Shown: piece after piece, positions 8,267-60,930 of the stretch | Position numbering within the stretch: the first letter of the stretch is position 1 | Layout: each line of letters opens with the position of its first letter | Assembly: GCF_007993815.1 (NCBI RefSeq) | Contig: NZ_VJWE01000012.1 | Location: 62,001 to 126,000 of the forward strand | Source: Acidovorax delafieldii | GTDB lineage: Bacteria > Pseudomonadota > Gammaproteobacteria > Burkholderiales > Burkholderiaceae_C | Length of the DNA: 64,000 nucleotides | Direction of reading: 5' to 3' | Program-made: the position numbers and the translations under genes | The notes under the pieces: generated by a model | Database searches by the model: none | Told to the model about the DNA's origin: nothing | Seen by the model: the letters and a program-made list of their open reading frames with translations, nothing else

Positions 8267-10894
8267 ATGAGCACTCCCACTTTTTCTGTCGCTGACATCC
8301 GCAAGTCCTTCCTGGACTTCTTCGTCTCCAAGGGCCACACCGTGGTGCCGTCGAGCCCTCTGGTGCCTGGCAACGACCCCACGCTGATGTTCACCAACTC
8401 GGGCATGGTGCAGTTCAAGGACGTGTTCCTGGGCACCGACAAGCGCTCGTACAACCGGGCGGTGTCCGTGCAGGCCTGCCTGCGTGCGGGTGGCAAGCAC
8501 AACGACCTGGAAAACGTGGGCTACACCGCGCGCCACCACACCTTCTTTGAAATGCTGGGCAACTGGTCGTTTGGCGACTACTTCAAGCGCGAATCGCTCA
8601 AGTGGGCCTGGGAGCTGTTGACCGAGGTTTACAAGCTGCCGCCAGAGCGCCTGCTGGCCACGGTCTACCGGGAGGACGACGAGGCCTACGACATCTGGAC
8701 CAAGGAAATCGGCTTGCCACCCGAGCGCGTGATCCGCATCGGCGACAACAAGGGCGGCCGCTACAAGTCCGACAACTTCTGGATGATGGCCGACACCGGC
8801 CCCTGCGGCCCCTGCAGCGAAATCTTCTATGACCACGGCCCGCACATTGCAGGCGGCCCTCCCGGCAGCCCCGATGAAGACGGCGACCGCTTCATCGAGA
8901 TCTGGAACAACGTGTTCATGCAGTTCAACATGGACGAGACGGGTGCCGTGACCCCGCTGCCCGCACCCTGCGTAGACACCGGCATGGGCCTGGAGCGCCT
9001 TGCAGCCATCCTGCAGCACGTGCACAGCAACTACGAGATCGACCTGTTCGACGCGCTCATCAAGGCCGCCGGCCGCGAGACCGGCGTGACGGACCTCAAC
9101 AACAAGAGCCTGCGTGTGATTGCCGACCACATCCGCGCAACCGCCTTCCTGGTGAGCGATGGTGTGATCCCCAGCAACGAAGGCCGTGGCTACGTGCAGC
9201 GCCGCATCGTGCGCCGTGCCATCCGCCACGGGTACAAGCTGGGCAAGAAGACCCCGTTCTTCCACAAGCTGGTGTCCGACCTGGTGCGCCTGATGGGTGA
9301 CGCCTACCCATCCCTGCGCGAGCAGGAGCAGCGCATCACCGAGGTGCTCAAGGTGGAAGAAGAGCGCTTCTTCGAAACGCTGGCCAACGGCATGGAAATT
9401 CTGGACGCGGCCCTGGACGGCGGCGCCAAGGTGCTGCCTGGCGACGTGGCGTTCAAGCTGCACGATACCTATGGCTTTCCGCTCGACCTGACCAATGACG
9501 TATGCCGCGAGCGCGACGTGGAAGTGGACGAGGCAGGCTTCAAGACCGCCATGGAAAAGCAGAAGGCCCAGGCCCGCGCTGCTGGCAAGTTCAAGATGGA
9601 CAAGGCGCTGGAGTACACCGGTGCCGCCAACCAGTTCACGGGCTACGAACACCTCGCAGAGACTGCAAAAATCGTAGCAATCTATGTAGACGGTACTAGC
9701 GCTGCAGCACTGAAAGCCGGCCAAAACGGCGTGGTGGTGCTGGACACGACCCCGTTCTACGCCGAAAGCGGCGGCCAGGTGGGTGACGAAGGTGTCATCA
9801 CCAGCGGCTCGGCCCGTTTTGCGGTGGGCGATACGCTCAAGATCAAGGCCGATGTGTTTGGCCACCATGGCATGCTCGAAGAGGGCACACTGAACGTGGG
9901 TGACACGGTGCAGGCCCAGGTGAACACCGCCGTGCGCGCAGCCACCGTGCGCAACCACTCGGTCACGCACATCATGCACAAGGCCCTGCGCGAAGTGCTG
10001 GGCAGCCATGTGCAGCAAAAGGGCAGCCTGGTCAATGCCGACCGCACGCGCTTCGACTTCACACACAACGGCGCCGTGACGGCGGCTGAAATCCGCGAGA
10101 TCGAACGCCGTGTGAACGAAGAAATCCTGGCCAACCAGCCCACGCAAGCGCGCGTGATGGACATCGAGTCGGCCCAGAAGACCGGCGCCATGATGCTGTT
10201 TGGCGAGAAGTACGGCGAGACCGTTCGCGTGCTCGACATCGGCACCAGCCGCGAACTGTGTGGCGGCACGCACGTGCAGCGCACGGGCGACATCGGCCTG
10301 TTCAAGGTGGTGGGCGAAGGTGGCGTGGCTGCTGGCATCCGCCGCATTGAGGCCGTGACCGGCGCCAACGCACTGGCGTACTTGCAGAACCTGGAAGACA
10401 CCGTGAACCAGGCCGCCAGCACCCTCAAGGCGCCGGTGGCCGAGCTCAATGGCCGCATCAGCCAGGCGCTGGACAACGCCCGCGCGCTCGAAAAGGAAGT
10501 GGCTGCCTTGAAGGGCAAGCTGGCCTCGAGCCAGGGTGACGAACTGGTGAACCAGGCGGTGGAGGTGAAGGGCCTCAAAGTGCTGGCTGCGGCGCTGCCG
10601 GGTGCCGACGCCAAGACCCTGCGCGACACCATGGACAAGCTCAAGGACAAGCTCAAGACCGCTGCCATCGTGCTGGCCGCCGTGGATGGCGACAAGGTGC
10701 AGATCGCTGCGGGCGTCACCGCCGACAGCGTGGGCAAGCTCAAGGCGGGTGAACTGGTCAACTTTGTCGCCCAGCAAGTCGGCGGCAAGGGCGGCGGCAA
10801 GCCCGACATGGCCATGGCTGGCGGCACTGACGCGTCCAAGCTGCCCGCAGCACTGGCTTCGGTGACAGGCTGGGTCACGCAGCAACTGGGCTGA
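8267..10894 (+). CDS. alaS: Alanine--tRNA ligase
   Basis: 875 residues from the ATG at 8267 ([19 protein letters not shown]), the usual length for bacterial AlaRS. The class II catalytic core is at the N-terminus (motif 2 region around [20 protein letters not shown]). The editing domain holds the zinc-binding HSVTH and CGGTH motifs, and a C-Ala oligomerisation domain ends the protein. It charges tRNA-Ala with alanine and clears Ser/Gly mischarging. The odd part is residues about 467-487 (nt 9667-9727). There the codon choice becomes AT-richer (GTA, GCA, ACT, AAA) and the DNA matches a dispersed repeat seen elsewhere in this window. The protein stays in frame and resembles the normal linker before [13 protein letters not shown]. 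Confidence 0.97.
9667..9727 (-). repeat. Dispersed repeat copy inside alaS (in frame)
   Basis: Read on the minus strand it runs TTTTGGCCGGC, then GCGCTAGT, then TTGCTACGATTTTT. These are the same module order as the intergenic copies at 31581, 35885 and 58130. It is one of three copies inside genes. It lies antisense to alaS and keeps the reading frame open. Confidence 0.55.
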
Positions 10895-10903
10895 TGTACC
10901 GGT

Positions 10904-10931
10904 CACCACAGCGGCACCCGCCGCTGTGGTG
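10904..10931 (+). terminator. 11-bp perfect hairpin after alaS
   Basis: CACCACAGCGG (10904-10914) pairs exactly with CCGCTGTGGTG (10921-10931) over a 6-nt loop, starting 10 bp after the alaS stop. There is no T-run, so it is a terminator-like or mRNA 3'-end stabilising structure and not a classical intrinsic terminator. Confidence 0.55.
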
Positions 10932-10994
10932 TGGTAGCCATGGCTGCCAAAAAGAGGGTGACGGAACGCCAGCTTTCACCCTAAAGTGCAGCGC

Positions 10995-13976
10995 ATGGAC
11001 ACCCTGCGCGACAGCCCCCAAGACCCGCCGCCGTCCGCTGTGCTTCGCGGTACGGGCGCTGCTTCGGTGGGCCAAGGCGGCCACCTGCCGTGGTGGCGCC
11101 GCATCACCATCCCCTTTGAGGTCCTGATCGCCACCGTGGTGGTCACCGCCATGCTGTTGTTGACAGCGTTGCTGGTGTACCAGGTCAGCACCAGCGCGCG
11201 CCAGGCCATCATTGCGGCGTCGGACGAGAGTGCGCAGCGCATCAGCCAGCTCATTGCAGAACGGGTACACCGCATCGTGGACCCGGCCGATGCCACCATC
11301 CGCCTGCTGGCGTTCGACCCGGTGGCCTCTGCGTCCACCCTGCCAGCGCGGCTGCGGCGCCTGCCTGTACTGGCGCGGCTGCTGGAGCAGAACCCGCTGC
11401 TGTCGGCGGTGTTCATCGGTTACCCGGACGGGCAGTTTTTGCTGGTGCGGCCGGTGCGAAACGAGGCCTTGCGGGTGCGGCTGGATGCACCGCCCAAAAC
11501 GGCGTACCTGGTGCAGTCCATGGCGCGCGAGCGCGGCTTGGCGGGCATGGTGGGGCGCTGGAGTTATTACGACGCGGACCTGCGGCTGATCGATTCGGCC
11601 GTGCGCCCGGAATACCGCTACGACCCCCGCACCCGGCCTTGGTACGCCGAGGCGCTGGAGCAGAACACCCAGATCCTCACGGCACCCTATGTGTTCTTCA
11701 CCACGCAGGAGGTGGGCATCACGCTGAGCCAGCCCAGCGAGGACGGGCGTGCGGTGATTGGCCTGGACGTGGCCCTGACCGACCTGGGGCATGAGATCAG
11801 TGGCCTGCGCCTGATGCCCCGCACCGAGATCGCGGTGGTGGACAAGGACGGCCGCGTGCTGGCCTATCCCGACATGTCGCGCGTGCTACTGCGTGATGGC
11901 AACACGCCGGGCCTGCGGCTACGTGCCCTAGACGATCTGGGTGTGCCCAGCCTGCATGCGCTGCAGGCGCTGGGCCTGAAAGATGGCGAGTCACGCCGCC
12001 TGCAGGCCGACGGCGAGGAATGGCTGGGCCGTTCGCTGCCGCTGGCATCGATGCGCTGGCAGGGGCTGCAGATCCTGATGGCGATTCCTACCAAAGAGCT
12101 GCTGGCCGAGGTGAACAACAACCTGCGCCAGCAGGTGTGGCTGTCGGTGTCGCTCATCGGCCTGATGCTGCCGTTGGGCTGGCTGGCCGGCCGGCGCGTG
12201 GGGCGCAGTCTATTCGGGCTGGCGTTGCAGGCCAGGGCGCTGGCGCGGTTTGATTTCCGGCGGCCCGAACGCCGGGTGTCGCCGGTGCGCGAGGTGCGCG
12301 ACCTGGGGCAGGTGATGGACCGCATGTCCGACACCATCCAGGAGTTCTTGCACATCACCCACCACATCAGCGCCGAGTCGCGCACCGACCTGATGCTGTC
12401 GAGCGTGCTGTACGAGCTGGTGCGCGCGACCAGTTGCACCGGCGGTGCGGTGTACCTCGTGGACCCGCAACGCACCGGCTTGCTGCGCGCGGCCCGCCAT
12501 TGCGAAGACCCGGAGCAGCAGTCGCGCTACCCCGAGCACCTGGCCATGGTGCATTTCATCAACCATACCGAGCCCCAACCTGGCGACCAGCACGAAGACG
12601 ACGACGACACCGAGCCCGCGCGCGTGCTGCGGGTGCAGCTGCGCACCCGTGACGGGCAGCCCCTGGGCCTGCTGGTGCTGCGCTACATCGCGGACCAGAC
12701 GCAGGACGACGCGCATTTCCGCGCGTTTGTCGAGAAGTTGTCCGGCACGCTGTCGGTGGCCATCGAGACGCGCAGCCTGATCGAAGGCCAGAAGAAGCTG
12801 CTCGATGCTGTCATCCGCCTGCTGGCCGACGCGATCGACGCCAAGAGCCCCTACACCGGTGGCCATTGCGAGCGCGTGCCGGAGCTGGCCGAGGCGCTGA
12901 TGGACCGCATGTGTGCGGCCAAGGACGGTCCGTTTGCCCAGGTGGCCATGACCGATGCCGAGCGCTACGAATTCCGCCTGGGGGCCTGGTTGCATGACTG
13001 CGGCAAGGTCACCAGCCCCGAGCACATCATCGACAAGGCCACCAAGCTGGAGACGCTCTACAACCGCATTCACGAGGTGCGCATGCGCTTTGAGGTGTTG
13101 TGGCGGGACGCTGAGCTGGACTACTGGAAGCAGCATGTGTCCGGCGTGGACCCGGTGCGCCTGCAGCGCGAGCTGCTGCAGCGGCGCGAACAACTGCAGG
13201 AAGACTTTGCCTTTGTAGCCCGCTGCAACGTGGGGGGCGAATTCATGGCCGAGGCGGACATTGCCCGCCTCAAGACCGTCGGCCGCCAGATATGGCAACG
13301 GCATTTTGACGACCGCCTGGGCCTGTCGGCCGCCGAGATGCTGCGACTTTCCAGCGTGCCGGTGCGCCCCTTGCCCGCCAACGAGCCGCTGCTGGCCGAC
13401 CGGCCCGAGCACATCGTGCCCTGGGGCACACGCAAGCCGCCGGTGGAGGCGGGCAACCCCGCCAATCGCTGGGGCTTTGACATGGTGTTGCCGCCCTACG
13501 AGGCGCACCTGGGCGAATTGCACAACCTGTCCATCCAGCGGGGTACGCTCACTGCCGAAGACCGCTTCAAGATCAACGACCACATCGTGCAGACCATCAT
13601 CATGCTCAGCGGTCTGCCGTTTCCGCCGCACCTGGCGCGCGTGCCGTCGATTGCCGGGTCCCACCATGAAAAGCTGGACGGCACCGGCTACCCCCGGCGC
13701 CTGAAGGCGCCCGAGCTGACGCTGGCCGACCGGGTGATGACCCTGGCCGACATCTTTGAGGCGCTGACTGCGGCCGACCGGCCCTACAAGCCACCCAAGA
13801 CCTTGTCCGAGTCGCTCAAGATCATGACCCACATGGTGCGCGAGCGTCACATCGATGCCGAGGTGTTTCGCTTCTTCCTGACCAGCGGCGTGTGGCGCGA
13901 CTACGCAGAGCGCTTTCTGACACCTGCGCAGCGCGACGAGGTCAATGTGGAGGCCATTCTGGCGTCGCTGGGCTGA
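10995..13976 (+). CDS. Membrane sensor HD-GYP phosphodiesterase (Cache-like/GAF/HD-GYP)
   Basis: 993 residues from the ATG at 10995. A GTG 9 bp upstream is an alternative start, and neither has a clear Shine-Dalgarno. Order of parts: a cytoplasmic N-tail; a first membrane helix (about residues 37-60); a large periplasmic sensor of Cache type; a second membrane helix near residues 380-400 followed by a HAMP-like linker; a GAF-like domain (about 460-590); then HD-GYP. The HD pair is in LHDCGK (near 667) and the GYP signature is in HHEKLDGTGYP (near 890). Such proteins hydrolyse c-di-GMP to pGpG or GMP in the cytoplasm in response to a periplasmic signal. Unusually, about 220 residues separate the two signatures against roughly 60-70 in typical HD-GYP domains, so a long insert is present. 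A diguanylate cyclase gene converges on it from the right. Confidence 0.85.
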   Translation: MDTLRDSPQDPPPSAVLRGTGAASVGQGGHLPWWRRITIPFEVLIATVVVTAMLLLTALLVYQVSTSARQAIIAASDESAQRISQLIAERVHRIVDPADATIRLLAFDPVASASTLPARLRRLPVLARLLEQNPLLSAVFIGYPDGQFLLVRPVRNEALRVRLDAPPKTAYLVQSMARERGLAGMVGRWSYYDADLRLIDSAVRPEYRYDPRTRPWYAEALEQNTQILTAPYVFFTTQEVGITLSQPSEDGRAVIGLDVALTDLGHEISGLRLMPRTEIAVVDKDGRVLAYPDMSRVLLRDGNTPGLRLRALDDLGVPSLHALQALGLKDGESRRLQADGEEWLGRSLPLASMRWQGLQILMAIPTKELLAEVNNNLRQQVWLSVSLIGLMLPLGWLAGRRVGRSLFGLALQARALARFDFRRPERRVSPVREVRDLGQVMDRMSDTIQEFLHITHHISAESRTDLMLSSVLYELVRATSCTGGAVYLVDPQRTGLLRAARHCEDPEQQSRYPEHLAMVHFINHTEPQPGDQHEDDDDTEPARVLRVQLRTRDGQPLGLLVLRYIADQTQDDAHFRAFVEKLSGTLSVAIETRSLIEGQKKLLDAVIRLLADAIDAKSPYTGGHCERVPELAEALMDRMCAAKDGPFAQVAMTDAERYEFRLGAWLHDCGKVTSPEHIIDKATKLETLYNRIHEVRMRFEVLWRDAELDYWKQHVSGVDPVRLQRELLQRREQLQEDFAFVARCNVGGEFMAEADIARLKTVGRQIWQRHFDDRLGLSAAEMLRLSSVPVRPLPANEPLLADRPEHIVPWGTRKPPVEAGNPANRWGFDMVLPPYEAHLGELHNLSIQRGTLTAEDRFKINDHIVQTIIMLSGLPFPPHLARVPSIAGSHHEKLDGTGYPRRLKAPELTLADRVMTLADIFEALTAADRPYKPPKTLSESLKIMTHMVRERHIDAEVFRFFLTSGVWRDYAERFLTPAQRDEVNVEAILASLG

Positions 13977-14080
13977 GAGGGGAAAGGCGCCCTACGGTGG
14001 ACGATGGAGCGCTACGTTCTTGCCCGGACCAGCCTTGTCGCAGCGGACAGCGGGCCATATGGCCATGGGGCCCGGCCCGG

Positions 14081-15166
14081 TCAGAACAGCTCGACGTCGT
14101 CGTTGGCGACCTTGGTCGCCAGTTGACCGCTGGCCACCAGATCGTCATAGAAGCAGACCTGGTTGCGGCCATGTTCCTTGGCGTAGTAAAGCGCCTGGTC
14201 GGCCTGGCCCAGAATCTCTACGGGCGAGCCGCGCGTGGTGCTCACAAAGCCCAGGCTCACCGTGACCTGGCCCACCTGCGGGAAGTGGTACTCCTGCACG
14301 GCCAGCCGGAAGCGGTTGAACACCTTGTGGGCGGTGCTCAGCGTGGTGGAGCGCAGCAGCACCACAAACTCTTCGCCGCCAAAGCGGAAGATGCGGTCAT
14401 GGCTGCGGAAAGAGCTGCGCAGGATGTTGGCGATCAGGATCAGCACCTCGTCGCCATACAGGTGGCCGAACCGGTCGTTGACCTGCTTGAAGTGGTCGAT
14501 GTCCACCACCGCCAGCCATTGCTGCAGGGGCTCGTTGTCGCTGGCCACTGCGGTTTCCTCGGCCGCAAAGGACTCGGTAACGGCGCCCTTACGGCTGGCC
14601 AGCCCGCTCATGGTGTAGCGGGAGAACTGCTCGTCAAACGTCTTGCGGTTGAACAGGCCAGTGAGCGCATCGCGCTCGCTGTAGTCGAGCAGGCTCTGGT
14701 AGTTCTGGTACACCTGAAACACGCCCATGAGCACGTCAAGCTTGTGGGCCGAGAACGGGCGCGACTGGGTGATCTCCAGGCAGGTACTGACCTTGTCGTG
14801 CATCCACACCGGCAGCCAGAGCACATGGCGGCCCCGGCGGGGCGAGGCCAGGGCGCTTTCGCCACGGCTGTCCACGCAGTCCCGCAGCGCGGGGTATTGG
14901 TCCAGCGGCTCGCGGCGGGGGTCTGCGGCGGCTTCGGAGTCGGTGGACACGAGCTGGCCGTTGTCCACCCAGGTACGGGGCCGCACATGGGGCACGCCAC
15001 CGTCCGTGAACAGCTCCAGGGCCCGCACCTCGATGATGCTGCTGAGCTTTTGCAGCGTGGACAGCACCGACACCTCGAGCCGCAGGTGGTCGCGGTGGCC
15101 AGTCATCTCCACCAGGTTTTGCAGGATGGGTTTCATAGGCGGTGTGGTGCGGGCCGATCGGGGCAT
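14081..15166 (-). CDS. Diguanylate cyclase (GGDEF domain)
   Basis: 361 residues from the ATG at 15164-15166, or 351 from the ATG at 15136 (MKPILQNLVEM). Neither start has a strong ribosome-binding site. The N-terminal two thirds is a sensor-like region with no recognised signature. The GGDEF domain has an intact GGEEF active site at residues 263-267, and RSHD five residues before it forms the RxxD product-inhibition I-site. It should make c-di-GMP from two GTP in the cytoplasm. It starts only 9 bp after trmB, so it may be co-transcribed with gluQ-trmB. It converges on the HD-GYP gene, which encodes the opposite activity. Confidence 0.88.
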   Translation of the reverse strand: MPRSARTTPPMKPILQNLVEMTGHRDHLRLEVSVLSTLQKLSSIIEVRALELFTDGGVPHVRPRTWVDNGQLVSTDSEAAADPRREPLDQYPALRDCVDSRGESALASPRRGRHVLWLPVWMHDKVSTCLEITQSRPFSAHKLDVLMGVFQVYQNYQSLLDYSERDALTGLFNRKTFDEQFSRYTMSGLASRKGAVTESFAAEETAVASDNEPLQQWLAVVDIDHFKQVNDRFGHLYGDEVLILIANILRSSFRSHDRIFRFGGEEFVVLLRSTTLSTAHKVFNRFRLAVQEYHFPQVGQVTVSLGFVSTTRGSPVEILGQADQALYYAKEHGRNQVCFYDDLVASGQLATKVANDDVELF

Positions 15167-15175
15167 GTCGTGGGG

Positions 15176-15949
15176 TCAGTTACGGCGCACAAACACCACG
15201 TCCCACACCCCATGGCCCAGTCGCAGCCCACGGTTTTCGAATTTGGTCAGCGGGCGGTAGTCGGGTTGCGGTGCAAAGCCGTCTGCGGTGTTTTGCAGCA
15301 GGGGTTCGGCGCTCAGCACCTGCAGCATTTGCTCGGCGTAGGGCTGCCAGTCGGTGGCGCAATGCAGGTAGCCGCCGGGCTTGAGGCGTGCAGCCAGCTT
15401 GGCCACCAGCGGGGGCTGGATCAGGCGGCGCTTGTTGTGCTTTTTCTTGTGCCAGGGGTCGGGGAAGAAGATGTGCACACCGTCGAGGACGCCGGGCGGC
15501 AGCATGTGGTCGATCACCTCCACGGCGTCGTGCTGCAGGATGCGGATGTTGGTCAGCCCTTGTTCGCCAATGCGCTTGAGCAGGGCGCCCACGCCGGGCT
15601 CATGCACCTCGCAGCACAGAAAGTTGTCGTCAGGCCGCACGCGGGCGATATGGGCCGTGGCCTCGCCCATGCCAAAGCCGATCTCCAGCACCAGCGGCGC
15701 ACTGCGGCCGAAGGCGGCGGTGGCGTCCAGCGGGGCGGGGGTGTAGGGCAGCACAAAACGCGGGCCGAAGTCCTCAAAGGCCTTGGCCTGGCCCGTGGTG
15801 GTGCGGCCGGCGCGGCGCACAAAGCTCTTGATGGTTTTGGGGTGGGTCACACCGGCGGGGGCAGAGCCCTGCACGGCGGGCGCTGTAGGGACGGCGGCTG
15901 CGGCAGGCGCAGCACTGGCGGGGGCGGAAGCTGTGGTCAATTCGGTCAC
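15176..15949 (-). CDS. trmB: tRNA (guanine-N7-)-methyltransferase
   Basis: 257 residues from the GTG at 15947-15949. That codon overlaps the TGA of gluQ (GTGA, 4 bp), which decides the start; the frame is open further upstream but has no family likeness there. The SAM-binding motif is [10 protein letters not shown], followed by the TrmB signature [15 protein letters not shown]. The first 35 residues are an Ala/Pro-rich extension. The enzyme methylates G46 in the variable loop of tRNAs with S-adenosylmethionine. Coupling to gluQ joins two tRNA-modifying activities. Confidence 0.94.
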
Positions 15950-16959
15950 GGTGGGCCATTGTAGTTTCGTCGCCACGCCGCCACCCACTGTGCCAGTGCG
16001 TCGGGTATGCAAATGTTGTGCAGATTTGCCACAGCGGGCAGGCCCAGTGCCAGCGCGGCTTGCGACAGGGCCACCACCGGGTTCTGCAGTTCCAGCGCCT
16101 GCGCGCCGTTTTGTTTGGAGAGTTTTTCGCCGTTGTCCCCGCACACCAGGGGGGTGTGCAGGTAGCGCGGTGTGGGCACCCCCAGGGCCTGCTGCAGCAG
16201 GATCTGGCGGGGCGTGTTGTCGGCCAGGTCCTCGCCCCGGACCACATCGGTGATGCCCTGGTCAGCGTCGTCCACCACTACGGCCAGCTGATAGGCCCAC
16301 AGTCCGTCTGCGCGGCGCAGCACAAAGTCGCCTACGGCGTTAGCCACCTGTTGCTGCTGGCGTCCCAGGCGGCGGTCGCGCCACTGCAGCATTCCGTCTG
16401 CTACTGAATATGTAGCGCTCCAGGCATGATCCACTAGCGCAATAGGTTGTTTTGGCTTGAAGTCTGTGACATTGAAGCGCCAGGAGCGCCCCGTGCGGCC
16501 GTGCAGCCCATGGCGGCAGGTGCCGGGGTAAGGCAGCGCGGCATGCCTCTCGCGGGCATGGCCCTGGGCGGCATGGGCGTCTTCGATATCCTTGCGTGAG
16601 CAGGCGCAGGGGTAGGCATCGCCCTGTGCCACCAGCTGGTCCAGGGCACGCTGGTACAGACTGCTGCGCGCGGACTGCCACTGGGGCGGGGCATCGGGGT
16701 GCAGGCCACAGGTGGCCAGTTGCTGAAGGATGAAGGTGTCCGCCCCCGGCACGCAGCGGGGCTGGTCCACATCCTCGATGCGCACCAGCCACCGCCCGTT
16801 GTGTGCGCGTGCATCCAGCCAGCTGGCCAGCGCGGCCACCAGAGAACCCGCATGCAGCGGGCCCGTGGGAGAGGGGGCAAACCGCCCCACATAGAGCCCT
16901 TCAACGCGTACTGCGGGGCTGCCCTTGTCGTGCGGCGTTGCGCCCACGCCCCGCGTCAT
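15946..16959 (-). CDS. gluQ: Glutamyl-Q tRNA(Asp) synthetase
   Basis: 337 residues from the ATG at 16957-16959. It is a truncated GluRS-like enzyme that puts glutamate on the queuosine base of tRNA-Asp. The class I signature is [15 protein letters not shown] and the KMSKS equivalent is EKLSKQNG. Zinc-ligand cysteines are in CACSRKD with a further Cys in GTCRHG. It has no C-terminal anticodon-binding domain, as expected. It overlaps the oxidase gene before it (ATGA, 16956-16959) and trmB after it (15946-15949). Residues about 169-188 are encoded by an AT-rich patch that matches the dispersed repeat of this genome. Confidence 0.93.
16398..16455 (-). repeat. Dispersed repeat copy inside gluQ (in frame)
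   Basis: On the minus (coding) strand it shows GCGCTAGTG, then CATGC, then AGCGCTACATATT, in the same order and spacing as the intergenic copy at 31581. It encodes about 20 residues of GluQ with codons such as CCA, AAA, CAA, CCT, ATT, CTA and TCA that are rare in flanking DNA. Confidence 0.6.
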
Positions 16960-19134: not shown

Positions 19135-19149
19135 GGTGGCGCCATGTTA

Positions 19150-22449: not shown

Positions 22450-22468
22450 TCAAAGTGTGATATGTAGA

Positions 22469-22523
22469 TAAAAATGGGCTGTAGCGCCAGTACATAAAAC
22501 GCTGGCAGCTCATTATTTGATAG
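22469..22523 (+). repeat. Dispersed repeat copy between pirin and trhO
   Basis: It shows GGGCTG, TAGCGCCAGT, GCTGGCAGCTC and TTTGATAG in the same order as the copy at 31581. It lies where the pirin and trhO genes converge. The last four codons and the stop of trhO are read from this element on the minus strand. Confidence 0.7.
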
Positions 22524-23295
22524 CGCCTTCTGTAGCGGCTGCAGCCGCTGTAGGCGTGTCGATGGCGAGCCCGGTGTCCAGCACGCGGCGCTCGTCAAAC
22601 ACAAAACACCCGCCGTGGTAGTGCGCGCCGTCTGTCAGCTCAAAGTATTTCAGGATGCCACCCTCCAGCTGGTAGACATGGGGCAGGCCTTCCTCGCGCA
22701 TGAGGATGGCGGCTTTTTCGCAGCGGATGCCGCCGGTGCAGAAGCTCACCACCGTCTTGTCCTGCAGTTCGCTTTTGTGCGCGCGCAGCGCAGGGGGAAA
22801 CTCGGTGAACTTGTCGATGCGCCAGTCGATGGCGTTGTCGAACGTGCCTGCGTCCACCTCGAAGGCGTTGCGGGTGTCGAGCGTGACCACTTCGCGGCCG
22901 TCGTCGTCATGGCCCTGGTCCAGCCAGCGGCGCAGCGTGGCCGGGTCTACAGAAGGCGCACGGCCTGCGGCGGGGCGGATGGTGGGGTGGTCCATGCGGA
23001 TGATCTCGCGCTTGACCTTGACCAGCATCTTGCGAAACGGCACCGTGGCCGACCAGCTCTCCTTGGGCTCCAGGTCGGCAAAGCGTTCGTCGGTACGCAG
23101 CTGAGCCACAAAACCCCGCACAGCTTCGGCCGGACCCGCCAGAAAGAAGTTGATGCCCTCTTCGGCCAGCAGGATGGTGCCCTTGAGATGGGCTGCCACT
23201 GCACGCTCATGCAGCACATCGCGCAGCGCGGCGGCATCGGGCAGCGGCACGAACTTGTAGCAGGAGATGTTGAGGACGGTGTCGGTAGTGTTCAC
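22513..23295 (-). CDS. trhO: tRNA uridine(34) hydroxylase / rhodanese-domain protein
   Basis: 260 residues from the GTG at 23293-23295. An ATG at 23361 is open but lies before the intrinsic terminator of the upstream gene, so the GTG is preferred. The N-terminal domain starts [11 protein letters not shown] and holds [16 protein letters not shown], typical of YceA/TrhO. The C-terminal rhodanese domain has the active loop [12 protein letters not shown] with its catalytic cysteine. TrhO makes 5-hydroxyuridine at the wobble position of some tRNAs using oxygen. The end of the protein (GAIK and the stop) falls within a dispersed repeat. Confidence 0.92.
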
Positions 23296-30064: not shown

Positions 30065-30112
30065 TACTCTTAATAGCTACGGCTATTGCTGCGTTTTGCG
30101 CCTGGCAGCCCC
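30065..30112 (-). repeat. Probable dispersed repeat copy between small gene and tesA-like gene
   Basis: On the minus strand GGGCTGCCAGGCGC is followed after a gap by TAGCTATT, partly matching the modules of the copy at 31581. It sits in the 181-bp region where a plus-strand and a minus-strand gene converge. This is the weakest of the ten matches. Confidence 0.4.
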
Positions 30113-30159
30113 TCCCGATCTGCAGCACACACTGATCGCTCGATGCGTGCAGCGAATCC

Positions 30160-31557: not shown

Positions 31558-31580
31558 GTGGTGGGTGGGGTTTTTGAGCG

Positions 31581-31633
31581 TTTTGGGCTGCAGGCGCTAG
31601 TGAAACATGCGCAAGCAGCTATGAATTTGATAG
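31581..31633 (+). repeat. Dispersed repeat copy between ABC ATPase gene and rlmB (reference copy)
   Basis: About 53 bp with modules GGGCTG, GGCGCTAGTG, CATGCGC, AGCTAT and TTTGATAG. I used it as the reference for the family because it holds every module. It fills most of the 117-bp gap between two genes on the same strand. Confidence 0.72.
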
Positions 31634-31674
31634 TGGTCTGAGGGAGTAGGCTGCGCCCAGCGGATAATCCCCCC

Positions 31675-35866: not shown

Positions 35867-35884
35867 GGGTGCTAGATTCAGTGA

Positions 35885-35936
35885 AAAGTGGCTGATGCGC
35901 CGGTAATTCATGCCTTGATAGCTATCATTGTGATAG
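35885..35936 (+). repeat. Dispersed repeat copy upstream of the CHR pair
   Basis: It shows GTGGCTG, TGCGCCGGT, CATGCC, TAGCTATC and TGATAG in the reference order. TGATAGCTATCA inside it is a perfect 12-bp palindrome. It lies between the divergent CHR and FAH-family genes, 19 bp from the preferred CHR start. Confidence 0.65.
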
Positions 35937-36122
35937 CTGTTCGGTGATGCGGCGGCCCCCGTGATGTTACGCGCGCATGAGGCGGTGCGCTGGCGTCGGG
36001 GCGTCGTCATCGGGCAAGCCCGGGGCGGCCATTGGTGCACGCGCGCAAGGCGGTGTGCCGCTATGCTGCCGGGTGGTACGCCCCCCGGGCCCTGGATTCA
36101 TCCATAGAGACAAGGACACCCC

Positions 36123-38268: not shown

Positions 38269-38290
38269 TGTCCGCTGGAGCGTACGGCTC

Positions 38291-38343
38291 AAAATGGCTC
38301 AAAGTGCTTGATTTATATGCCTTGAATGCTATGAATTTTCTGG
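38291..38343 (+). repeat. Dispersed repeat copy after VIT gene
   Basis: It shows GGCTC, AGTGCTTG, TATGCC and TGCTATGAATTTT in reference order. It lies 22 bp after the VIT stop, where it converges with the PhyH-type gene. Confidence 0.62.
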
Positions 38344-38379
38344 TTTTTGCTGCGCCTGCTGTGCTCCTTCCCCCGCACT

Positions 38380-52039: not shown

Positions 52040-52048
52040 AAATGCCTC

Positions 52049-52068: not shown

Positions 52069-52230
52069 AAAGCAAGTATATGTCTGACGGCCATCAAGCC
52101 TGTAACAGTGAGGGGCAAGGGCCGCCAAGGCGACAAAAACCGTCCGCCAACGTAAAATCACGGGTTATCCACCACAGACGCGCACCACGAAGGCCCCCAT
52201 CGCACCGGGGGCGGCCGCGACCCCCTTTGC

Positions 52231-54645
<2,415 letters not shown>

Positions 54646-54784
54646 TCCGCTGCCAGCGTGCTTGCGTGGCGGGCAGGGCGTCCATCTGCCCATTGCATCT
54701 GCAGGCTGAAACGGTTGGCTGGCATGCCGCGCCAACCGCATCGGCGGGGTGGCGGGACTCAGGCGCGCCAGGCCCGCGCGGTGG

Positions 54785-57217
54785 TCAGGCGGTGGTGTAG
54801 TCCCTCGCCAGGCATTCCGACAGCGGCACGGGCTTTGCCACCGCATAGCCTTGGGCGTAGTTCACGCCGATGAGTCGCAACGCATCCACGGTGGCGTCGG
54901 ACTCGGCGAACTCGGCAATCGTCTGCTTGCCCATCACATGGCCGATGCGGTGGATCATTTCCACCATGGCACGGTTGGTGGGGTCTTGCAGAAGGTCTTT
55001 CACGAAAGCGCCGTCGATCTTGAGGTAATTCACCGGCAGGTGCTTGAGGTAGGTGAAGGACGACATGCCCGCGCCGAAGTCATCGAGCGCGAACCGGCAG
55101 CCCAGTTGCTGCAGCTCCTTCATCAGTCGCACCGCGTTGGGCAGGTGCGATATCGCGCTGGTCTCGGTGATCTCGAAGCACAGCAGCGCGGGGTCCAGCC
55201 CGGATTCGGTGAGCGTGGTGCGTATGTACTTGAGCAGGCTGTCGTCGCCCAGGCTGGTGCCCGAGAGGTTGATGGCGCAGGTGTGCAGCGGCTGGGCGCC
55301 CGGGGTGCGCTGGTGCTGCGCCAGCGCCTGCAGTGTGTGGCGGATCACCCAGCGGTCGATGGACGGCATCATCCCGTAGTGCTCGGCGGCCGGGATGAAG
55401 GTGCCAGGCGCCACCAGCTGGCCGTTTTCCTCCTCGCGCAGGCGCAGCAGCACCTCCATGTGCAGGCCTTCATCACCGGTGCCTTGCAGCGCGCGGATGG
55501 TCTGCGCGTACAGCTGGAAACGGTTGTGCTCCAGCGCCAGGCGCAGGCGCCGCACCCAGTCCATGTCGCCTTCGCGCCGGGTCATCTCGATGTCTTCGGG
55601 CTGGTAGATGAACACCCTGTTGCGCCCACCTTCCTTGGCACGGTAGCAGGCCATGTCGGCCACGCGCATGGCCTCCTGGATGGAGGTGAGCGCTGGGATG
55701 AGCTGCACCATGCCGATGGATAGGCCTGTGCTGAGCTGCTGGCCTTCCCAGGCCAGGCGCAGGTCTTGGCCAGCCTGGCGCAATTGCTCTGCAATGCGCG
55801 CCGAGGGGCCAACGGGGCAGTCCTTGAGCAGGATGCCGAATTCGTCGCCGCCCAGCCGTGCCAGCGTGTCCCCTTCGCGCAGGTGGCTTTGCAGCATGCG
55901 ACAGACCTCCCGCAGCATCTCGTCCCCGGCCTGGTGGCCGCAGGTGTCGTTGATGAGCTTGAACTGGTCCATGTCCACGTAGAGCAGCGAGCCCTCACGG
56001 CCCGGCTGGCGCGGGTGGCTGAGCAGGGCTTCAAGCCGGTGCTCGAACTCGCGGCGGTTCACCAGGCCCGTCAGCGCATCATGGCTGGCCTGCCACGAGA
56101 GCTGCTCTACATAGTTCTGCTCGCGCGTGACGTCGTGCAGCGCCAGCACCGCCCCGGTCAGCACACCCCGGTGCCGGATGGGAGAGCCCACCAGCCTCAC
56201 CGGAACGATGCTCTGGTCCGGTCGCACCAGGGTGCGGTGGATGTTGCCCTTGGCGGCACCATCGCTGCGCAGCAGCGTCTGCACCAGGGCGTCGGCCGAC
56301 AGGGGTGGTGCATCACCTTCGAAGACCAGCAACTGCGCCAGAGGTTGCCCGGTGGCCTGGGCGGCCGGGCGGGCCAGCAAGGTTTCTGCGGCAGGATTCA
56401 TGTAGGTGACCTCGCCGTGGATGTTGGTCGTCACCACGGCATCGCCAATGGCGGCCAGCGTGGTGCGCGCCTGTTCCCGCTCGACCTCCAGGGCGCGCTC
56501 CGCGTTCTGGCGCTGGGCCAGCAACTTGTGCGTGTGCCACAGGGTCAGAAGAATCAGCACCAGGGCCATGCCCATGTTGGTCCACATCAGCAGGAGCACG
56601 ATGTGGCGCGAGCTTTCGCCCAGGGCCTCGCTGAAGTTCCGGGCCGCCGGGGTCACGCCCGCGTTGATGTCGCGGATGGTGTTCTGCCACCGTTCGCGGG
56701 TGGTGGCGTCCGCCGTGCCGGCGGTGTTGCGCTGGTGGATCTCGTGCGACAGCTCGCGCAGCGCACGGATGTACTCGTCGCCCACCAGCCATTGGTCTAC
56801 CGGCTTCTTCACCAGATCAAAGCCGTCAAAGTAGCGCAGCAGCCAGATCAGGCCGTCAATGTCATCGGGGTGGTTACCACCGCGCAGAAAGCCGTCGCGC
56901 GCCACATCCGTCTGCACCTGGCCTGGCTCCAGGGCCAGCCGTGCCGCCCGGTCGCCCAGCGGGATCTCCATGGCGCGGGTGAACCCTTCAAAGGCCTGGG
57001 GGGAGCCGGTGATGGCGTACTGGTTCAGAAAATAGATGGCATCCTTCTGGCCTTTGGTCCATAGGCTTTCGCCTGCAACGAAGGCACGCACCGAGGACAA
57101 AACATGCAGGCTGGCCGTGGCGCACACCGCCAGCAGCAACACCATGGTGATGAAAGGCCAGGTCACCCGCAACGTCAACGGCACAGGCCTTCGCTCGACC
57201 GGCTGCAATACATCCAT
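54785..57217 (-). CDS. Membrane GGDEF/EAL dual-domain protein with PAS domain
   Basis: 810 residues. Two membrane helices (about 20-40 and 205-230) enclose a periplasmic sensor. Then come PAS (about 255-370), GGDEF with an intact LGGDEF site and I-site REGD, and EAL. In the EAL domain the signature is EVLLR in place of E-A-L, and the other catalytic parts are present (DDFGAG, LKIDG, and the Glu of AEFAES). So it may both make and break c-di-GMP, and the domain in charge cannot be told from sequence. It is a single-gene unit converging on ygiQ. Confidence 0.9.
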   Translation of the reverse strand: MDVLQPVERRPVPLTLRVTWPFITMVLLLAVCATASLHVLSSVRAFVAGESLWTKGQKDAIYFLNQYAITGSPQAFEGFTRAMEIPLGDRAARLALEPGQVQTDVARDGFLRGGNHPDDIDGLIWLLRYFDGFDLVKKPVDQWLVGDEYIRALRELSHEIHQRNTAGTADATTRERWQNTIRDINAGVTPAARNFSEALGESSRHIVLLLMWTNMGMALVLILLTLWHTHKLLAQRQNAERALEVEREQARTTLAAIGDAVVTTNIHGEVTYMNPAAETLLARPAAQATGQPLAQLLVFEGDAPPLSADALVQTLLRSDGAAKGNIHRTLVRPDQSIVPVRLVGSPIRHRGVLTGAVLALHDVTREQNYVEQLSWQASHDALTGLVNRREFEHRLEALLSHPRQPGREGSLLYVDMDQFKLINDTCGHQAGDEMLREVCRMLQSHLREGDTLARLGGDEFGILLKDCPVGPSARIAEQLRQAGQDLRLAWEGQQLSTGLSIGMVQLIPALTSIQEAMRVADMACYRAKEGGRNRVFIYQPEDIEMTRREGDMDWVRRLRLALEHNRFQLYAQTIRALQGTGDEGLHMEVLLRLREEENGQLVAPGTFIPAAEHYGMMPSIDRWVIRHTLQALAQHQRTPGAQPLHTCAINLSGTSLGDDSLLKYIRTTLTESGLDPALLCFEITETSAISHLPNAVRLMKELQQLGCRFALDDFGAGMSSFTYLKHLPVNYLKIDGAFVKDLLQDPTNRAMVEMIHRIGHVMGKQTIAEFAESDATVDALRLIGVNYAQGYAVAKPVPLSECLARDYTTA

Positions 57218-57537
57218 GGATGGCTCCCTCGCCTCGTGCCAAGCTGCTTGCGCCAGTGATGCCTGGTGGCCCCATCCGGCGCGCCCTCATCAGTGTGTCC
57301 GCATGCTCCGTCAATGCCTGCGGTCCAGGGTTGTCCTGGAACGGGTGGCTGATTCGGCGGTGCGGTGCTTCCGACCCACTATATAGAGATCAACTTGCCA
57401 GCGCATGCAAAGTTTGGCAACCCCTTGTGCCTGCGGGGAATGGCCGCCATGCCGATGCGCACCCGCACCTGAACCTGCGCGCGGCGGGCTATCGCTGGCT
57501 CCGCCCAGGTGTTGCCCAGCCTGGCAGAAGCCGGTGT
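57218..57537. other. 320-bp intergenic region, promoter of GGDEF/EAL gene
   Basis: The only non-coding stretch above 300 bp. An AT-rich core at about 57378-57395 holds TATATAG, a probable -10 on the minus strand for the GGDEF/EAL gene. It is next to a TTGCCA-N14-TGGCAA inverted repeat (57391-57416) that could be an operator. The part from 57420 to 57537 follows the stop of the gene to the right and shows nothing I can name. No ORF with codon character is present. Confidence 0.4.
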
Positions 57538-57999
57538 TTACGGCGCCGCAGCGTGGGTGCCCACCAGCACGGACTGCGGGCCATCGTCTGCGGGCTGCGA
57601 GATCAGGTCTTCGATGATGAAGGTGCGGTAATAGAACGCCGTGACCGCGCCTTCGGGGGCAATGGCTGCCACCAGCGTGTCGGTGTCGTCCTTGTCGTTC
57701 ACTGCGATCAGAATGCCGTGGTGGCCGGAGCCCGCCAGGTCGGCAATGCGCCGCACCATGTCGCCTTCGGCGCCCACAGATGGCAGCGGTGCATCTGCAG
57801 TGCCCAGGGTATGCACAATTTCTTGCAGGATGACTTCGGGGCTGGCGTAGGCGACATCGCCCTGATGGCCTGCTGCCTGCAATGCGAGTGCGGCCTGGCG
57901 CGCGCAGTCCTCGTCGGGGAACAGCGCAAACACCTGGCCGGTGGGGTAGAAAACGCCGCCCATGGTGGTCATGGTGGAATCAAGGACGAGGGGTTTCAT
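57538..57999 (-). CDS. Conserved hypothetical protein, stress-type alpha/beta
   Basis: 153 residues from the ATG at 57997-57999, the better of two nearby ATGs by its GGGAG spacing. It reads as two short alpha/beta halves: the first around TGQVFALFPDEDCARQAALALQAAG, the second around HHGILIAVNDKDDTDTLVAAI, with a YYRTFIIEDL end. The pattern resembles small regulatory or general-stress domains that sample a ligand, but no family is recognised. Confidence 0.72.
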   Translation of the reverse strand: MKPLVLDSTMTTMGGVFYPTGQVFALFPDEDCARQAALALQAAGHQGDVAYASPEVILQEIVHTLGTADAPLPSVGAEGDMVRRIADLAGSGHHGILIAVNDKDDTDTLVAAIAPEGAVTAFYYRTFIIEDLISQPADDGPQSVLVGTHAAAP

Positions 58000-58129
58000 G
58001 GGCATCTCCCGAAGTGTTTCAGACCTTTGGGATTGAAACCGGGCCTCCTGGCGCGCTGTGTAGGCCAGCGGGCCATCTGTGCGTCAGCCCGCTTTGCATT
58101 GCCGGGGGCTGGGTCACAAGAATATGTGC

Positions 58130-58183
58130 CAAAAGCGCTTGATGCGCTAGTGCTTCATGGGTTGATTGCTATCAATTTGTTAG
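58130..58183 (+). repeat. Dispersed repeat copy upstream of hypothetical gene at 57999
   Basis: It shows GCGCTAGTG, TTCATGG, TTGCTATC and AATTTGTTAG in reference order; TTGAT-TGCT-ATCAA inside it is a small perfect hairpin. It lies 17 bp after the stop of the cold-shock/DUF1294 gene. Confidence 0.68.
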
Positions 58184-58199
58184 TTTTTGACCGCATCTG

Positions 58200-58904
58200 C
58201 TAGCCCAGCCATCCACCCAGCCAGGCCCCCAGCGCCGCGCAATGCAGCACCACCGTCGCCCAATACACCGCGCGAAACTCCGCCTTGCGGGATTTGTGCC
58301 GCAGCCACTGCTGGGCCCACCATGCGCCGGGCCAGCCGCCTGCAAGGCTCAGCAGGTGCAGGTGGCTTTCCTTGGTGCGCCACCGGCCGTTTTGCGCGGC
58401 GCTTTTGTCGATGGCGTAGACCAGAAAGGTCAGGAGGTTGACGGCGACCGCCGCGCCCAGCACCCACCACGGCAGTCTTCCTGCCCAGAGGCCCCAGCCC
58501 AGCAGCCCCGCCCAGCCGAGCATGAGTAGCCGTATCAGCGCCGATCCGGTGGGAGTGGTCGGTTCGATGGCCGCCACAGGGCGCCTGCGCCTGGGGGCTT
58601 GAGGTTGCCCCGCCCGTTGCGCCGGCGCGCGCCGCGCTGGGTGCGCAGGGGGCGGCGGCGTCGGTGCCGTGCTGCGGGGCTGGAACGCGCCACCCGCGTG
58701 TGCAGTGGGCAACACCGCCATGGCCCGGGGCCCTTTTCCGCCGACATGAATCTCCTCGTACACCACGGCGAGCCCTTCGCGGGGCGGGGTCGTGCCCCGG
58801 TAGTCCCGCACATGAAAGAACACATCGGCGGACGTGTCAGGGCTGCGGATAAAGCCGAAGGCGCGGCTGGCGTCCCAGCGGACGACGGTGCCTTGTTTCT
58901 GCAT
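58200..58904 (-). CDS. Cold-shock domain fused to DUF1294 membrane domain
   Basis: 234 residues. Residues 1-65 are a cold-shock-like OB fold (GTVVRWDASRAFGFIRSPDTSADVFFHVRDY, with RNP1-like GFGFI and RNP2-like VFFH). A Pro/Arg-rich linker (about 70-115) leads to three or four membrane helices and the DUF1294 marks YAIDKSAAQNGRWRTKE and LAGGWPGAWWAQQWLRHKSRK. The protein should tether an RNA- or ssDNA-binding domain to the inner membrane. The function of this known fusion is not established. Confidence 0.9.
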   Translation of the reverse strand: MQKQGTVVRWDASRAFGFIRSPDTSADVFFHVRDYRGTTPPREGLAVVYEEIHVGGKGPRAMAVLPTAHAGGAFQPRSTAPTPPPPAHPARRAPAQRAGQPQAPRRRRPVAAIEPTTPTGSALIRLLMLGWAGLLGWGLWAGRLPWWVLGAAVAVNLLTFLVYAIDKSAAQNGRWRTKESHLHLLSLAGGWPGAWWAQQWLRHKSRKAEFRAVYWATVVLHCAALGAWLGGWLG

Positions 58905-58920
58905 CGGTCAGGAAGTGCTT

Positions 58921-59811
58921 TCAGGCCAGGGTTTGCAAAGGAATGTCTTGCGCCACCGCCAAAGCATCAAGCTGCGCGCGGGTCTGTGTGCGCAAGAACG
59001 CCGCCACGGCCGCGTGGGTGGCGGGGGCGCGCAGCACCTGCGGGTCGCCCGTGGCGGGCAAGCCTGCGGCAGCACACAGGCTGGCGGCGAAGTGGGGTTC
59101 CAACGCGGCCACGGCCACGCGGCCGTCGGCGCAGGGGTAGATGCGGTAGCCTGCGTGGTTGCCTCCCACGTCGCCCTCGGGGGTGGTCAGGCCCCAGTCG
59201 CGCGGCTGGGCCAGCCAGGCGGCGGCGTCGGCCAGGGCGACTTCGATGCACACGCCGTTGCCTGTGTGGGCGCGCTCCAGCAGGGCCTGCAGCACGGCTT
59301 CGCTGGCCATCAGGGCGCCGCCCATGTCGGCGTACAGGGTGGGTGGCATCTCGGTGCCGGTCACCAGGCCCGCATCAGCCAGGTAGGTGAGGTCATGGCC
59401 GGGCTCCTCGGCCCGCTCGGCCGCCGCGCCCACGATGCGTACCAGCGAAAGGCGTGGATATTTTGATTGAAGCGCCTCCCAGGAGAGGCCCAGCTTGGCC
59501 AGGGCCGACGGACGGAACGAGGTGATCAGCACATCGGTGCTTGCCAGCTCTGCATGCAGCGTGGCCTGGCCTTCGGTCGTCTTGAGGTGGGCATGCACCA
59601 CGCGCACGCCCTGGTGCAACGTGGCATAGGCCGCCGGGCTGTAGATGCCCATGGGGTCGGCACTGGGGTAGCCGGGGGCTGGAGGCGGTTCGAGCTTGGA
59701 GCATTGGGCTCCCATGCGGGCGCAGCGCATCAGGGCGGCAGGGCCGGGCAGGTTCAGCGCGAGGCTCAGGACGCGGACATTGCGCAGGGGCTGGGGCAGG
59801 GCGGTGGTCAT
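58921..59811 (-). CDS. CaiB/BaiF-family CoA-transferase, short form
   Basis: 296 residues from the ATG at 59809-59811. The family start VRVLSLALNLPGPAALMRCARMGA is typical of alpha-methylacyl-CoA racemase/CoA-transferase proteins. A class III CoA-transferase usually has about 360-410 residues, so this one is short, mostly in the middle. The usual Asp nucleophile of the family is expected near the HDLTYLADAG segment, where D is present. It may transfer CoA between carboxylates. Neighbours give no pathway. It is divergent from a DODA-type dioxygenase gene. Confidence 0.78.
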   Translation of the reverse strand: MTTALPQPLRNVRVLSLALNLPGPAALMRCARMGAQCSKLEPPPAPGYPSADPMGIYSPAAYATLHQGVRVVHAHLKTTEGQATLHAELASTDVLITSFRPSALAKLGLSWEALQSKYPRLSLVRIVGAAAERAEEPGHDLTYLADAGLVTGTEMPPTLYADMGGALMASEAVLQALLERAHTGNGVCIEVALADAAAWLAQPRDWGLTTPEGDVGGNHAGYRIYPCADGRVAVAALEPHFAASLCAAAGLPATGDPQVLRAPATHAAVAAFLRTQTRAQLDALAVAQDIPLQTLA

Positions 59812-59926
59812 GGGCTCAGGGTTGTCTCGGTGTTGTGGTTTTGAATGGAAGGTGTGGCGCTGGAACTTCGCAGGGCGCGCGGGCTCACTCCCTGCGTTAT
59901 ACATAATTTGTTACGCTCCCTGACCC

Positions 59927-60850
59927 ATGCAACGCAGAACCTCTTTGGCCGCCCTCACGGGCCTGGCCGCCTTTCCGGGAGCTTTCATGACCTCGTCTTT
60001 GAGCAGTGCCGCCACGGCGACCGCGCTGCAGGCGCTCAAGCCCTCGCCCCGCATGCCCGTGCTGTTTGTGGGCCATGGCAGCCCCATGAATGCCATCGAG
60101 GACAACGCCTGGCGCCGCAGCTGGCAGGCCATGGGTACGGAACTGATGGCGCGGGCGGTGCAGCCGCAGCTCATCCTGTGTGTGTCGGCCCACTGGCTCA
60201 CGCGTGGTGGCTGGCAGCTCACCGGCATGGCCAACCCCAAAACCATCCACGACTTTGGCGGCTTCCCCCAGGCGCTGTTCGACCAGCAGTACCCCGTGCC
60301 GGGCGCACCGGCCGTGGCGCGCAGCCTGGCCAGGGAGCTGAAATCTCCTGCCACGGGCGCCGCCCTCGGCGTGGACGAGGGCGAGTGGGGGCTGGACCAC
60401 GGCACCTGGTCGGTGCTCAAGCCCATGTTTCCCCAGGCGCGTATCCCGGTGATGCAGCTCAGCATGGACTACAGCCGAGCACCGGCCGAGCACTATGCGC
60501 TGGGCCAGCAGCTCAAGGCCCTGCGCGAGCGGGGCGTGCTGATCGTGGGCAGCGGCAACATCGTGCACAACCTGCGCGCATCCCGCCGTGGCTCGGCTGC
60601 CAACGAAGCCTACGACTGGGCCACGGAGTTCGACACCGTGGTGCAGGAGCAGATCAAGAAGGGCCAGCTGGGCGCCTTGCAGGACTTCCAGAACCTGGGC
60701 GCCGTGGCCCAGCAGGCGCACCCCACTTACGAGCACTACCTGCCGCTGCTTTACGCAGCGGGAGCCGTGCTGCCCAGCGAGATGCCCCGCTTTTTCAACA
60801 CGGGCTATCAGTCGGCATCGATCTCGATGCGGTCGGTGCTGTGGGGCTGA
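59927..60850 (+). CDS. ygiD: Class III extradiol dioxygenase, 4,5-DOPA dioxygenase type (YgiD-like)
   Basis: 307 residues. Zinc- or iron-ligand histidines are in VGHGSPMN and VSAHWLTRGG, with later ones in GLDHGTWSVLKPMF and NIVHN. It belongs to the LigB-type family that opens DOPA or other catechols. The first 30 residues (MQRRTSLAALTGLAAFPGAF) look like a twin-arginine signal and a spacer. That is unusual because most YgiD proteins are cytoplasmic, so export to the periplasm is possible. An inner Met at residue 21 (MTSSL) would also give a short form. Confidence 0.86.
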   Translation: MQRRTSLAALTGLAAFPGAFMTSSLSSAATATALQALKPSPRMPVLFVGHGSPMNAIEDNAWRRSWQAMGTELMARAVQPQLILCVSAHWLTRGGWQLTGMANPKTIHDFGGFPQALFDQQYPVPGAPAVARSLARELKSPATGAALGVDEGEWGLDHGTWSVLKPMFPQARIPVMQLSMDYSRAPAEHYALGQQLKALRERGVLIVGSGNIVHNLRASRRGSAANEAYDWATEFDTVVQEQIKKGQLGALQDFQNLGAVAQQAHPTYEHYLPLLYAAGAVLPSEMPRFFNTGYQSASISMRSVLWG

Positions 60851-60878
60851 TGGATGCTTTCTGAAGCGGATTGAATGC

Positions 60879-60930
60879 TTCTTTTTTGATAGCTATTGGT
60901 GCATGTACATCTAGCACTTGAGGCCAAAAA
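60879..60930 (-). repeat. Dispersed repeat copy after ygiD-like gene
   Basis: On the minus strand it shows TTGGCCTC, AGTGCTAG, ACATGC and TAGCTATC in reference order. It lies where the ygiD-like and the nucleotidyltransferase genes converge. Confidence 0.62.

Follow-up and report, generated by a model that had tools for sequence, protein, structure and literature searches.

The window analysed here, a stretch of 64,000 nucleotides from Acidovorax delafieldii (assembly GCF_007993815.1, contig NZ_VJWE01000012.1, positions 62,001 to 126,000), carries copies of a 66-bp repeat that belongs to a family with hundreds of members held at fixed positions on the chromosome. These copies are mosaics: their arms carry the memory of the locus in which they lie, and a core of ~25 bp carries the dialect of the lineage, with three dialects in the genus. 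We tentatively favour, with less than even confidence, a reading from sequence comparison in which the elements are predicted binding sites for one protein that would read the ~25-bp core, the family as a whole probably serving as a lineage-specific mark of the chromosome.

Copies were scored with a gapless profile of 72 columns trained on 59 copies from C1:1-400000 of G000, the window's own genome, in a region outside the window; labels of this form denote the genomes compared. Copies of ~30 bits or more number 59 in these 400 kb, plus 8 in the 64 kb of the window, a density that extrapolates to ~725 copies in the G000 genome. With up to three mismatches allowed, a 29-letter core pattern matched the whole G000 genome 430 times (219 on the plus and 211 on the minus strand) and its reversed version 0 times, while none of 20 randomised versions of the window (order-3 Markov) has a position reaching 0 bits with the profile. 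The edges of the element are sharp, lying at columns -24 and +43 around a GCGC core, which gives a length of ~66 bp, and its ~55 bits of information are distributed along all 66 bp. GC content is 44%, compared with 66% for the Acidovorax host genome; information and GC content are alike in G000 and its relative G033. In both of these genomes symmetry is greatest about column 9, and the dyad covers the whole element as imperfect inverted-repeat halves. Near-palindromic copies, in which the AGCTAT end occurs in both halves and which match in either orientation, were seen at G023 C12:80704-80742 and at the rlmB locus of G022 (L081). An earlier note on the window had described a densely occurring, partly palindromic family of repeats whose modules keep a fixed spacing; the family is real and stronger than was claimed, and it withstood the shuffled-sequence control and genome scan proposed for it.

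The positions of the copies are stable among related species. In G004 (91.6% identical), 58 of 59 mappable copies from the 400-kb region of G000 occupy the orthologous place in the same orientation; one copy is absent from a rearranged spacer and one was unmappable. In the more distant G011 (82.4% identical), 24 of 25 mappable copies are present and the 25th place holds a reversed copy, with 35 unmappable. Five copies were found only in the relatives (three in G004 and two in G011) and lacked a scored counterpart in G000, where the sites shown are decayed or unalignable. No clean empty site occurred among the sites examined in the comparison of these three genomes. For the eight copies of the window across nine species, 61 of 72 cells are filled, some of the unfilled cells being loci that lie outside the compared stretches. 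The copy before rlmB has a positional counterpart at 19 of 22 loci of the genus, including one ~200 bp further upstream in G022 and a 17-bit relic in G002, and outside the genus its place is shared by 9 of 30 carrier genomes, in 4 of 19 genera (positions and strands read by eye). Among 80 named rlmB loci listed, 12 have a match 60-260 bp upstream, in the same orientation in 11, including those of Acidovorax, Giesbergeria and Rhodoferax. An active miniature inverted-repeat transposable element (MITE), expected to vary in presence with target duplication, was rejected on the retention in G004 and the lack of a clean empty site. The family is not a young mobile element and does not move now, contrary to the suggestion of present mobility in the earlier note.

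The mosaic structure was measured on orthologous copies at 8 loci in 9 species, with the core taken as columns 0..22 and 200 permutations. Three core dialects were recognised: dialect A, GCGCTAGT..CATGC, in G000, G004 and G018; dialect B, GCGCTTAT..AAGCGC, in G011, G007, G015, G022 and G001, and also in G033; and dialect C, ACCGCGCG..ATTGCCTTGATAGC, in G010 and, by pattern, in G013, G014 and G020. Across loci, cores of the same dialect share an excess identity of 0.102 (permutations: mean -0.001, maximum 0.025), and the locus memory of the core across dialects is 0.028. The arms show locus memories of 0.177 and 0.136 and dialect signals of 0.000 and -0.007. When 58 copies of G000 were assigned by core type, 25 were A, 8 were B, 2 were C and 23 were unassigned. 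A search of 51 genomes with the dialect C pattern gave 26 matches in G010, 15 in G013, 16 in G014, 7 in G020, one in G023 and zero in the remaining 46. Dialects A and C may be derived, judging from the patterns, since that of B occurs in many other genera and that of C gave 0 matches in 15 genomes of other genera.

In the dyads of G000 (66 copies) and G033 (83 copies), pairing is close to that expected from independent columns, and over all columns in G000 no strong linkage joins distant columns. The dyad columns thus pair as if independent, which points to additive recognition and not folding, and the copies appear to be read column by column, like protein-binding sites. An RNA element, either a bidirectional terminator or a hairpin stabilising mRNA, is very improbable, although the dialect B consensus contains, by eye, an inverted repeat of ~9 bp and the folding z scores average -1.2 and -1.7 and fall below -2 in 33% and 37% of copies. 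The commonest inner-arm letters of dialect A do not pair, the copies prefer neither convergent spacers nor one orientation, and the window has 0 matches to Rfam at the gathering score. The RNA-processing signal that had been suggested as an alternative thus finds neither orientation bias to genes nor base-pair covariation, and an RNA hairpin or terminator was rejected for the lack of covariation in both genomes.

Placement relative to genes was taken from codon-based gene calls made in this analysis for the 59 copies of G000 C1:1-400000. Forty-five are intergenic, comprising 29 in tandem, 11 in convergent and 5 in divergent spacers, and 14 are intragenic, which does not bear out the statement that copies lie mostly between converging genes. 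When only spacers of 60 bp or longer are counted, convergent ones contain a copy in 9 of 36 cases, tandem ones in 27 of 109 and divergent ones in 5 of 43, and the copies in tandem spacers are balanced in orientation, 17 with the gene and 12 opposite to it. The intragenic copies were considered as proof of insertion and rejected as such. At the gluQRS copy the protein has a stretch that exceeds its counterpart in E. coli YadB by ~35 residues, with a longer linker at the copy, but this longer stretch is present in all 120 GluQRS homologues listed, and DapF is ambiguous. A copy in a biotin carboxylase subunit gene falls between protein domains, and a PDB search with CobS, the product of another copy-bearing gene, gave no match.

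Spacing between copies is more even than random, with a coefficient of variation (CV) of 0.70 in G000 (p 0.002) and 0.69 in the syntenic stretch of G004 (p 0.0013), two results that are not independent because the stretches are orthologous. G011 has 137 kb (C1:4126786-4263626) without any element at 15 bits, with evenly spaced copies on either side (CV 0.56 in each flank, compared with 0.70-1.29 and 0.59-1.36 at random). This gap is accessory DNA, in which the eight larger open reading frames (ORFs) scanned include an OLD-like nuclease, resistance-nodulation-division (RND) efflux pumps, glycosyltransferases (among them a large tetratricopeptide repeat (TPR)-glycosyltransferase protein) and metabolic enzymes. 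Even spacing in G000, in G004 and beside the G011 gap, together with stable positions and the use of both orientations with no preference for gene direction, is what would be expected if a nucleoid, topoisomerase or segregation protein acted on evenly spaced chromosome-organising sites. Local runs of one orientation (12 consecutive plus copies in G000 C1:1-400000, and 12 of 13 listed copies on the plus strand in G033 C1:1631250-1901873, in the 1.63-1.90 Mb region) may bear on the same idea. We nevertheless consider it a serious but rather improbable alternative, as the runs occur without any chromosome-wide bias, the family is near-absent from sister species and the expected periodicity is lacking. 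Replichore polarity, which partial listings had suggested, is not supported by 63 plus and 57 minus copies in G033 (position-sorted, 100 of 120 places listed) and by 8 plus and 5 minus in five further stretches of G000; an apparent helical phasing at 10.5 bp, noticed by eye, likewise found no support, the periods lying near 8 and 24.

Under the favoured reading, one sequence-specific protein would bind the ~25-bp core as double-stranded DNA, changes in the preference of this reader would drive the dialect of the core at every site, and lineages losing the reader would then lose the motif. The original spread would probably date from an earlier phase of mobility, given that chance does not produce 55 bits and that some copies lie in frame in genes. 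By analogy with the dialects of the DNA uptake sequence (DUS) in Neisseria, the most likely use would be the recognition of self DNA in natural transformation, with chromosome organisation close behind. Self-DNA recognition is favoured because of the lineage dialects, the even spread, the absence from the accessory stretch, the near-absence in sister species and reports of transformation in this group: Acidovorax temperans was transformed only by donor DNA of the same species, and its relative Verminephrobacter shows selective DNA uptake, no uptake sequence being named in the sections of that report drawn on here (PMC4212676). In behaviour, the DUS dialects of the Neisseriaceae, as far as the source used here describes them, are the closest known system, as they too have many chromosomal copies, lineage-specific cores, relatives without any and a family with transformable members. 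A more speculative and, on balance, doubtful extension is that the family could be a self-DNA watermark of the Comamonadaceae, formed by long uptake signals that carry a dialect, with arms inherited with the locus and a core altered throughout the genome at every change of reader; each lineage would in this way recognise its own chromosome.

Several observations weigh against the favoured reading and the use proposed for it. No reader protein was identified, no search aimed at a ComP-like receptor having been made. The competence gene ComEC (PF03772) occurs in 35 of 35 genomes rich in the element but also in 23 of 24 poor in it, and being equally frequent it does not separate carriers from non-carriers; the A. 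temperans result can alternatively be explained by failed recombination between diverged DNA. DUS are ~10 bp long and present in thousands of copies (Frye et al. 2013, PMC3630211), unlike an element of 66 bp and 55 bits that is intergenic in 45 of 59 cases and has arms with locus memory, and an uptake role here is proposed by analogy. Over the whole stretch of G011 the spacing is uneven (CV 2.34) because of the 137-kb element-free stretch. The link between dialect and phylogeny is suggested by core alignments and patterns and not by a tree. Finally, core columns that show no preference lose their locus memory more quickly than the arms do: between G000 and G011 it is -0.005 to 0.085, compared with 0.27-0.30 in the arms; between dialects A and B and dialect C it is -0.014 in the core and 0.237 in the arms; and inside dialect B it is 0.082 and 0.175 (confidence interval of the difference 0.006-0.165), while the core-arm difference inside dialect A is not significant. 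This faster loss is not predicted by a pure binding-site model and hints at copying between cores.

Such copying is at the centre of another explanation, possible but less probable than the favoured one, in which an old palindromic mobile element (MITE-like or resembling the doublets of repetitive extragenic palindromic (REP) sequences known as REPINs) is now vertically inherited and its cores are homogenised inside each genome not by a binding protein but by templated copying, through gene conversion or repeated re-insertion into old copies. Beyond the lost locus memory of the no-preference columns, the 55 bits and the in-frame copies point to copying, five identical cores are listed close together in G027, and one locus, G000 C1:34699, differs from its G004 counterpart at 14 core but only 5 arm positions, the G000 core resembling dialect C and that of G004 being dialect B. 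However, loci that stand out in core change have also changed in their arms (r 0.71), and inside dialect A the arms, used as the control, are as overdispersed as the cores; distant columns in G000 have no strong linkage, the candidate transposase is not associated and no clean empty site was seen. Block replacement of the core is only suggested and is not claimed as a proven event, because the arm control fails in this overdispersion test.

The transposase in question would be the REP-associated tyrosine transposase (RAYT), to which the abundance of REP elements is tied and whose REPs keep complementary mutations (Nunvar et al. 2010, PMC2817692). A Y1_Tnp (PF01797) gene, counted at the level of the Pfam family, is as frequent in element-rich genomes (35 of 37) as in element-poor ones (22 of 23), so the link to RAYT, also raised by the earlier note, was rejected. 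The only such gene found in G000 (C1:130001-130288 and 129573) has a weak element copy of 38 bits at its 3' end, and the GGGGTCAGA/GGGGACA-like repeats near it look, by eye, like REPs of its own. REP sequences are 20-40 bp in length (PMC3733652). Like REPs, bacterial interspersed mosaic elements (BIMEs) and REPINs, as described in these sources, the family is abundant, dispersed, palindromic, mostly intergenic and lineage-typed; unlike REPs and REPINs it is 66 bp long, with neither covariation nor a RAYT association. It was not assigned to them for these reasons and for the lack of complementary mutations and of a conserved tetranucleotide head in the consensus.

The Bordetella repetitive element (BRE), which in Bordetella is 75-91 bp at full length, 69% GC and often in tandem, and which is present in at most 29 copies per genome in the account of Hot et al. 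(2011, PMC3110155), is also known from the Comamonadaceae, with 29 in Polaromonas JS666 (PMC3110155). It resembles the present family as a short repeat that is both intergenic and intragenic and is found in the Comamonadaceae; the present element differs in being 66 bp, 44% GC, dispersed and in hundreds of copies, a separation that follows the description of BRE and not its letters. Rickettsia palindromic elements have palindromic copies in frame within genes as well as between genes, and this is the likeness they share with the present family, in which three quarters of copies are intergenic and the core has lineage dialects. The earlier note knew of no matching named family, and literature searches, which mostly did not extend to subscription papers, likewise found no paper naming the element.

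In the window itself ten copies had been claimed, of which eight are confirmed at 40.5-70.0 bits. The strongest (70 bits; 31570..31637, plus strand, profile start 31568, core at ~31591-31615) lies in a divergent spacer ~40 bp before rlmB, encoding a SpoU methylase identical to the protein of an Acidovorax metagenome-assembled genome. A 65-bit copy in a convergent spacer (60874..60941, minus, profile start 60872) is orthologous in G004, G018, G011, G007 and G001. Tandem spacers hold copies of 61 bits (58120..58187, plus, profile start 58118), found in 7 of 9 species, of 59 bits (22460..22527, plus, profile start 22458) and of 45 bits (35873..35940, plus, profile start 35871), the last before a fumarylacetoacetate (FAA) hydrolase gene and both of these in 9 of 9 species; here and below the counts include A. 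delafieldii. A 55-bit copy (16397..16464, minus, profile start 16395), also in 9 of 9 species, is in frame within gluQRS (15946-16959, minus), whose product is 92-95% identical to Acidovorax entries. The 46-bit copy (53074..53141, minus, profile start 53072; 8 of 9 species) is inside an ORF of 800 aa (52165-54567, minus) with no Pfam match, and the 40-bit copy (38280..38347, plus, profile start 38278; 4 of 9 species) is in a convergent spacer and has a counterpart of 72 bits in G004. Of the remaining two claimed copies, that at 30065..30124 (minus) scores -18 to -23 bits and is not a copy, and that given at 9667, ninth in rank, is a marginal match of 15.2 bits (9659..9726, minus, profile start 9657) inside the alaS coding sequence, above every Markov control. 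The alaS match scores 14-28 bits in G004, G011, G015, G007 and G018 and has no counterpart in G022 and G001; the Pfam match spanning the site covers 545 residues for 550 profile positions with no sign of a large insertion, and the PDB alignment of alaS stops short of it.

The distribution of the family among genomes is uneven. In 35 genomes of the same genus, the dialect A pattern gave 59-455 matches in 31 and 3-12 in four, whereas 24 genomes from other families of the order gave 0-4. One of the four, G002 (12 pattern matches), has three weak matches (17-31 bits) within 200 kb, including one at the place before rlmB. Across 299 genomes of the family, 48 genomes from 23 of 126 genera have at least 20 matches to the dialect B pattern, and species differ sharply within genera: those of g103 have 424, 160 and 2 matches and those of g132 have 435, 13 and 2. 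Among viral contigs, 33 stretches carry the dialect B pattern and 0 the dialect A pattern (raw counts, uncorrected for host), and a phage collection gave one match.

The element also occurs on plasmids: on R751 and R46, the DUF1010 gene cassette of class 1 integrons contains a 55-bit copy. The ORF spans L142:2911-3201 in R751 and L143:2411-2701 in R46, with the element at nt 87-158, and the Pfam DUF1010 match begins at the element and covers protein residues 31-96. Of 72,556 plasmid records, 1,837 match the query with E no higher than 1, although the match covers 80% of the query in only 51; with a second query, 50 of 60 evenly sampled records were annotated as DUF1010 at the match. In a loose scan (E no higher than 1, with scoring limited to 150 candidates in each genome), DUF1010 matches number 16-110 per genome in 12 element-rich and 1-7 in 8 element-poor genomes, and most of those listed cover only the first 20-45 positions of the profile; caution is needed, as 11 of 14 control genomes also match at this loose limit, none of them over the curated cut-off. 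These data indicate that the first third of Pfam DUF1010, a family annotated on numerous plasmids from clinical bacteria, is a reading of the repeat and not of an ordinary protein. Its end, by eye, is presumably a reading of the cassette's recombination site. Clusters of DUF1010 matches at short intervals occur in G180 (C33:1709-10533) and near the contig starts of C4 and C12 in G067, and near-identical element cores at short intervals occur in G027 (C1:4861-6721 and C17:27609-35460); both may be integron cassette arrays.

Part of a large environmental family of bacteria thus has chromosomes that each contain hundreds of copies of one repeat, under no name found in the literature searches. Its mosaic evolution, with arms that follow the locus and a core that follows the lineage, provides a clean natural experiment on the joint change of hundreds of dispersed sites. 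If the reader protein is found, species-selective transformation in Acidovorax and Verminephrobacter would become directly testable.

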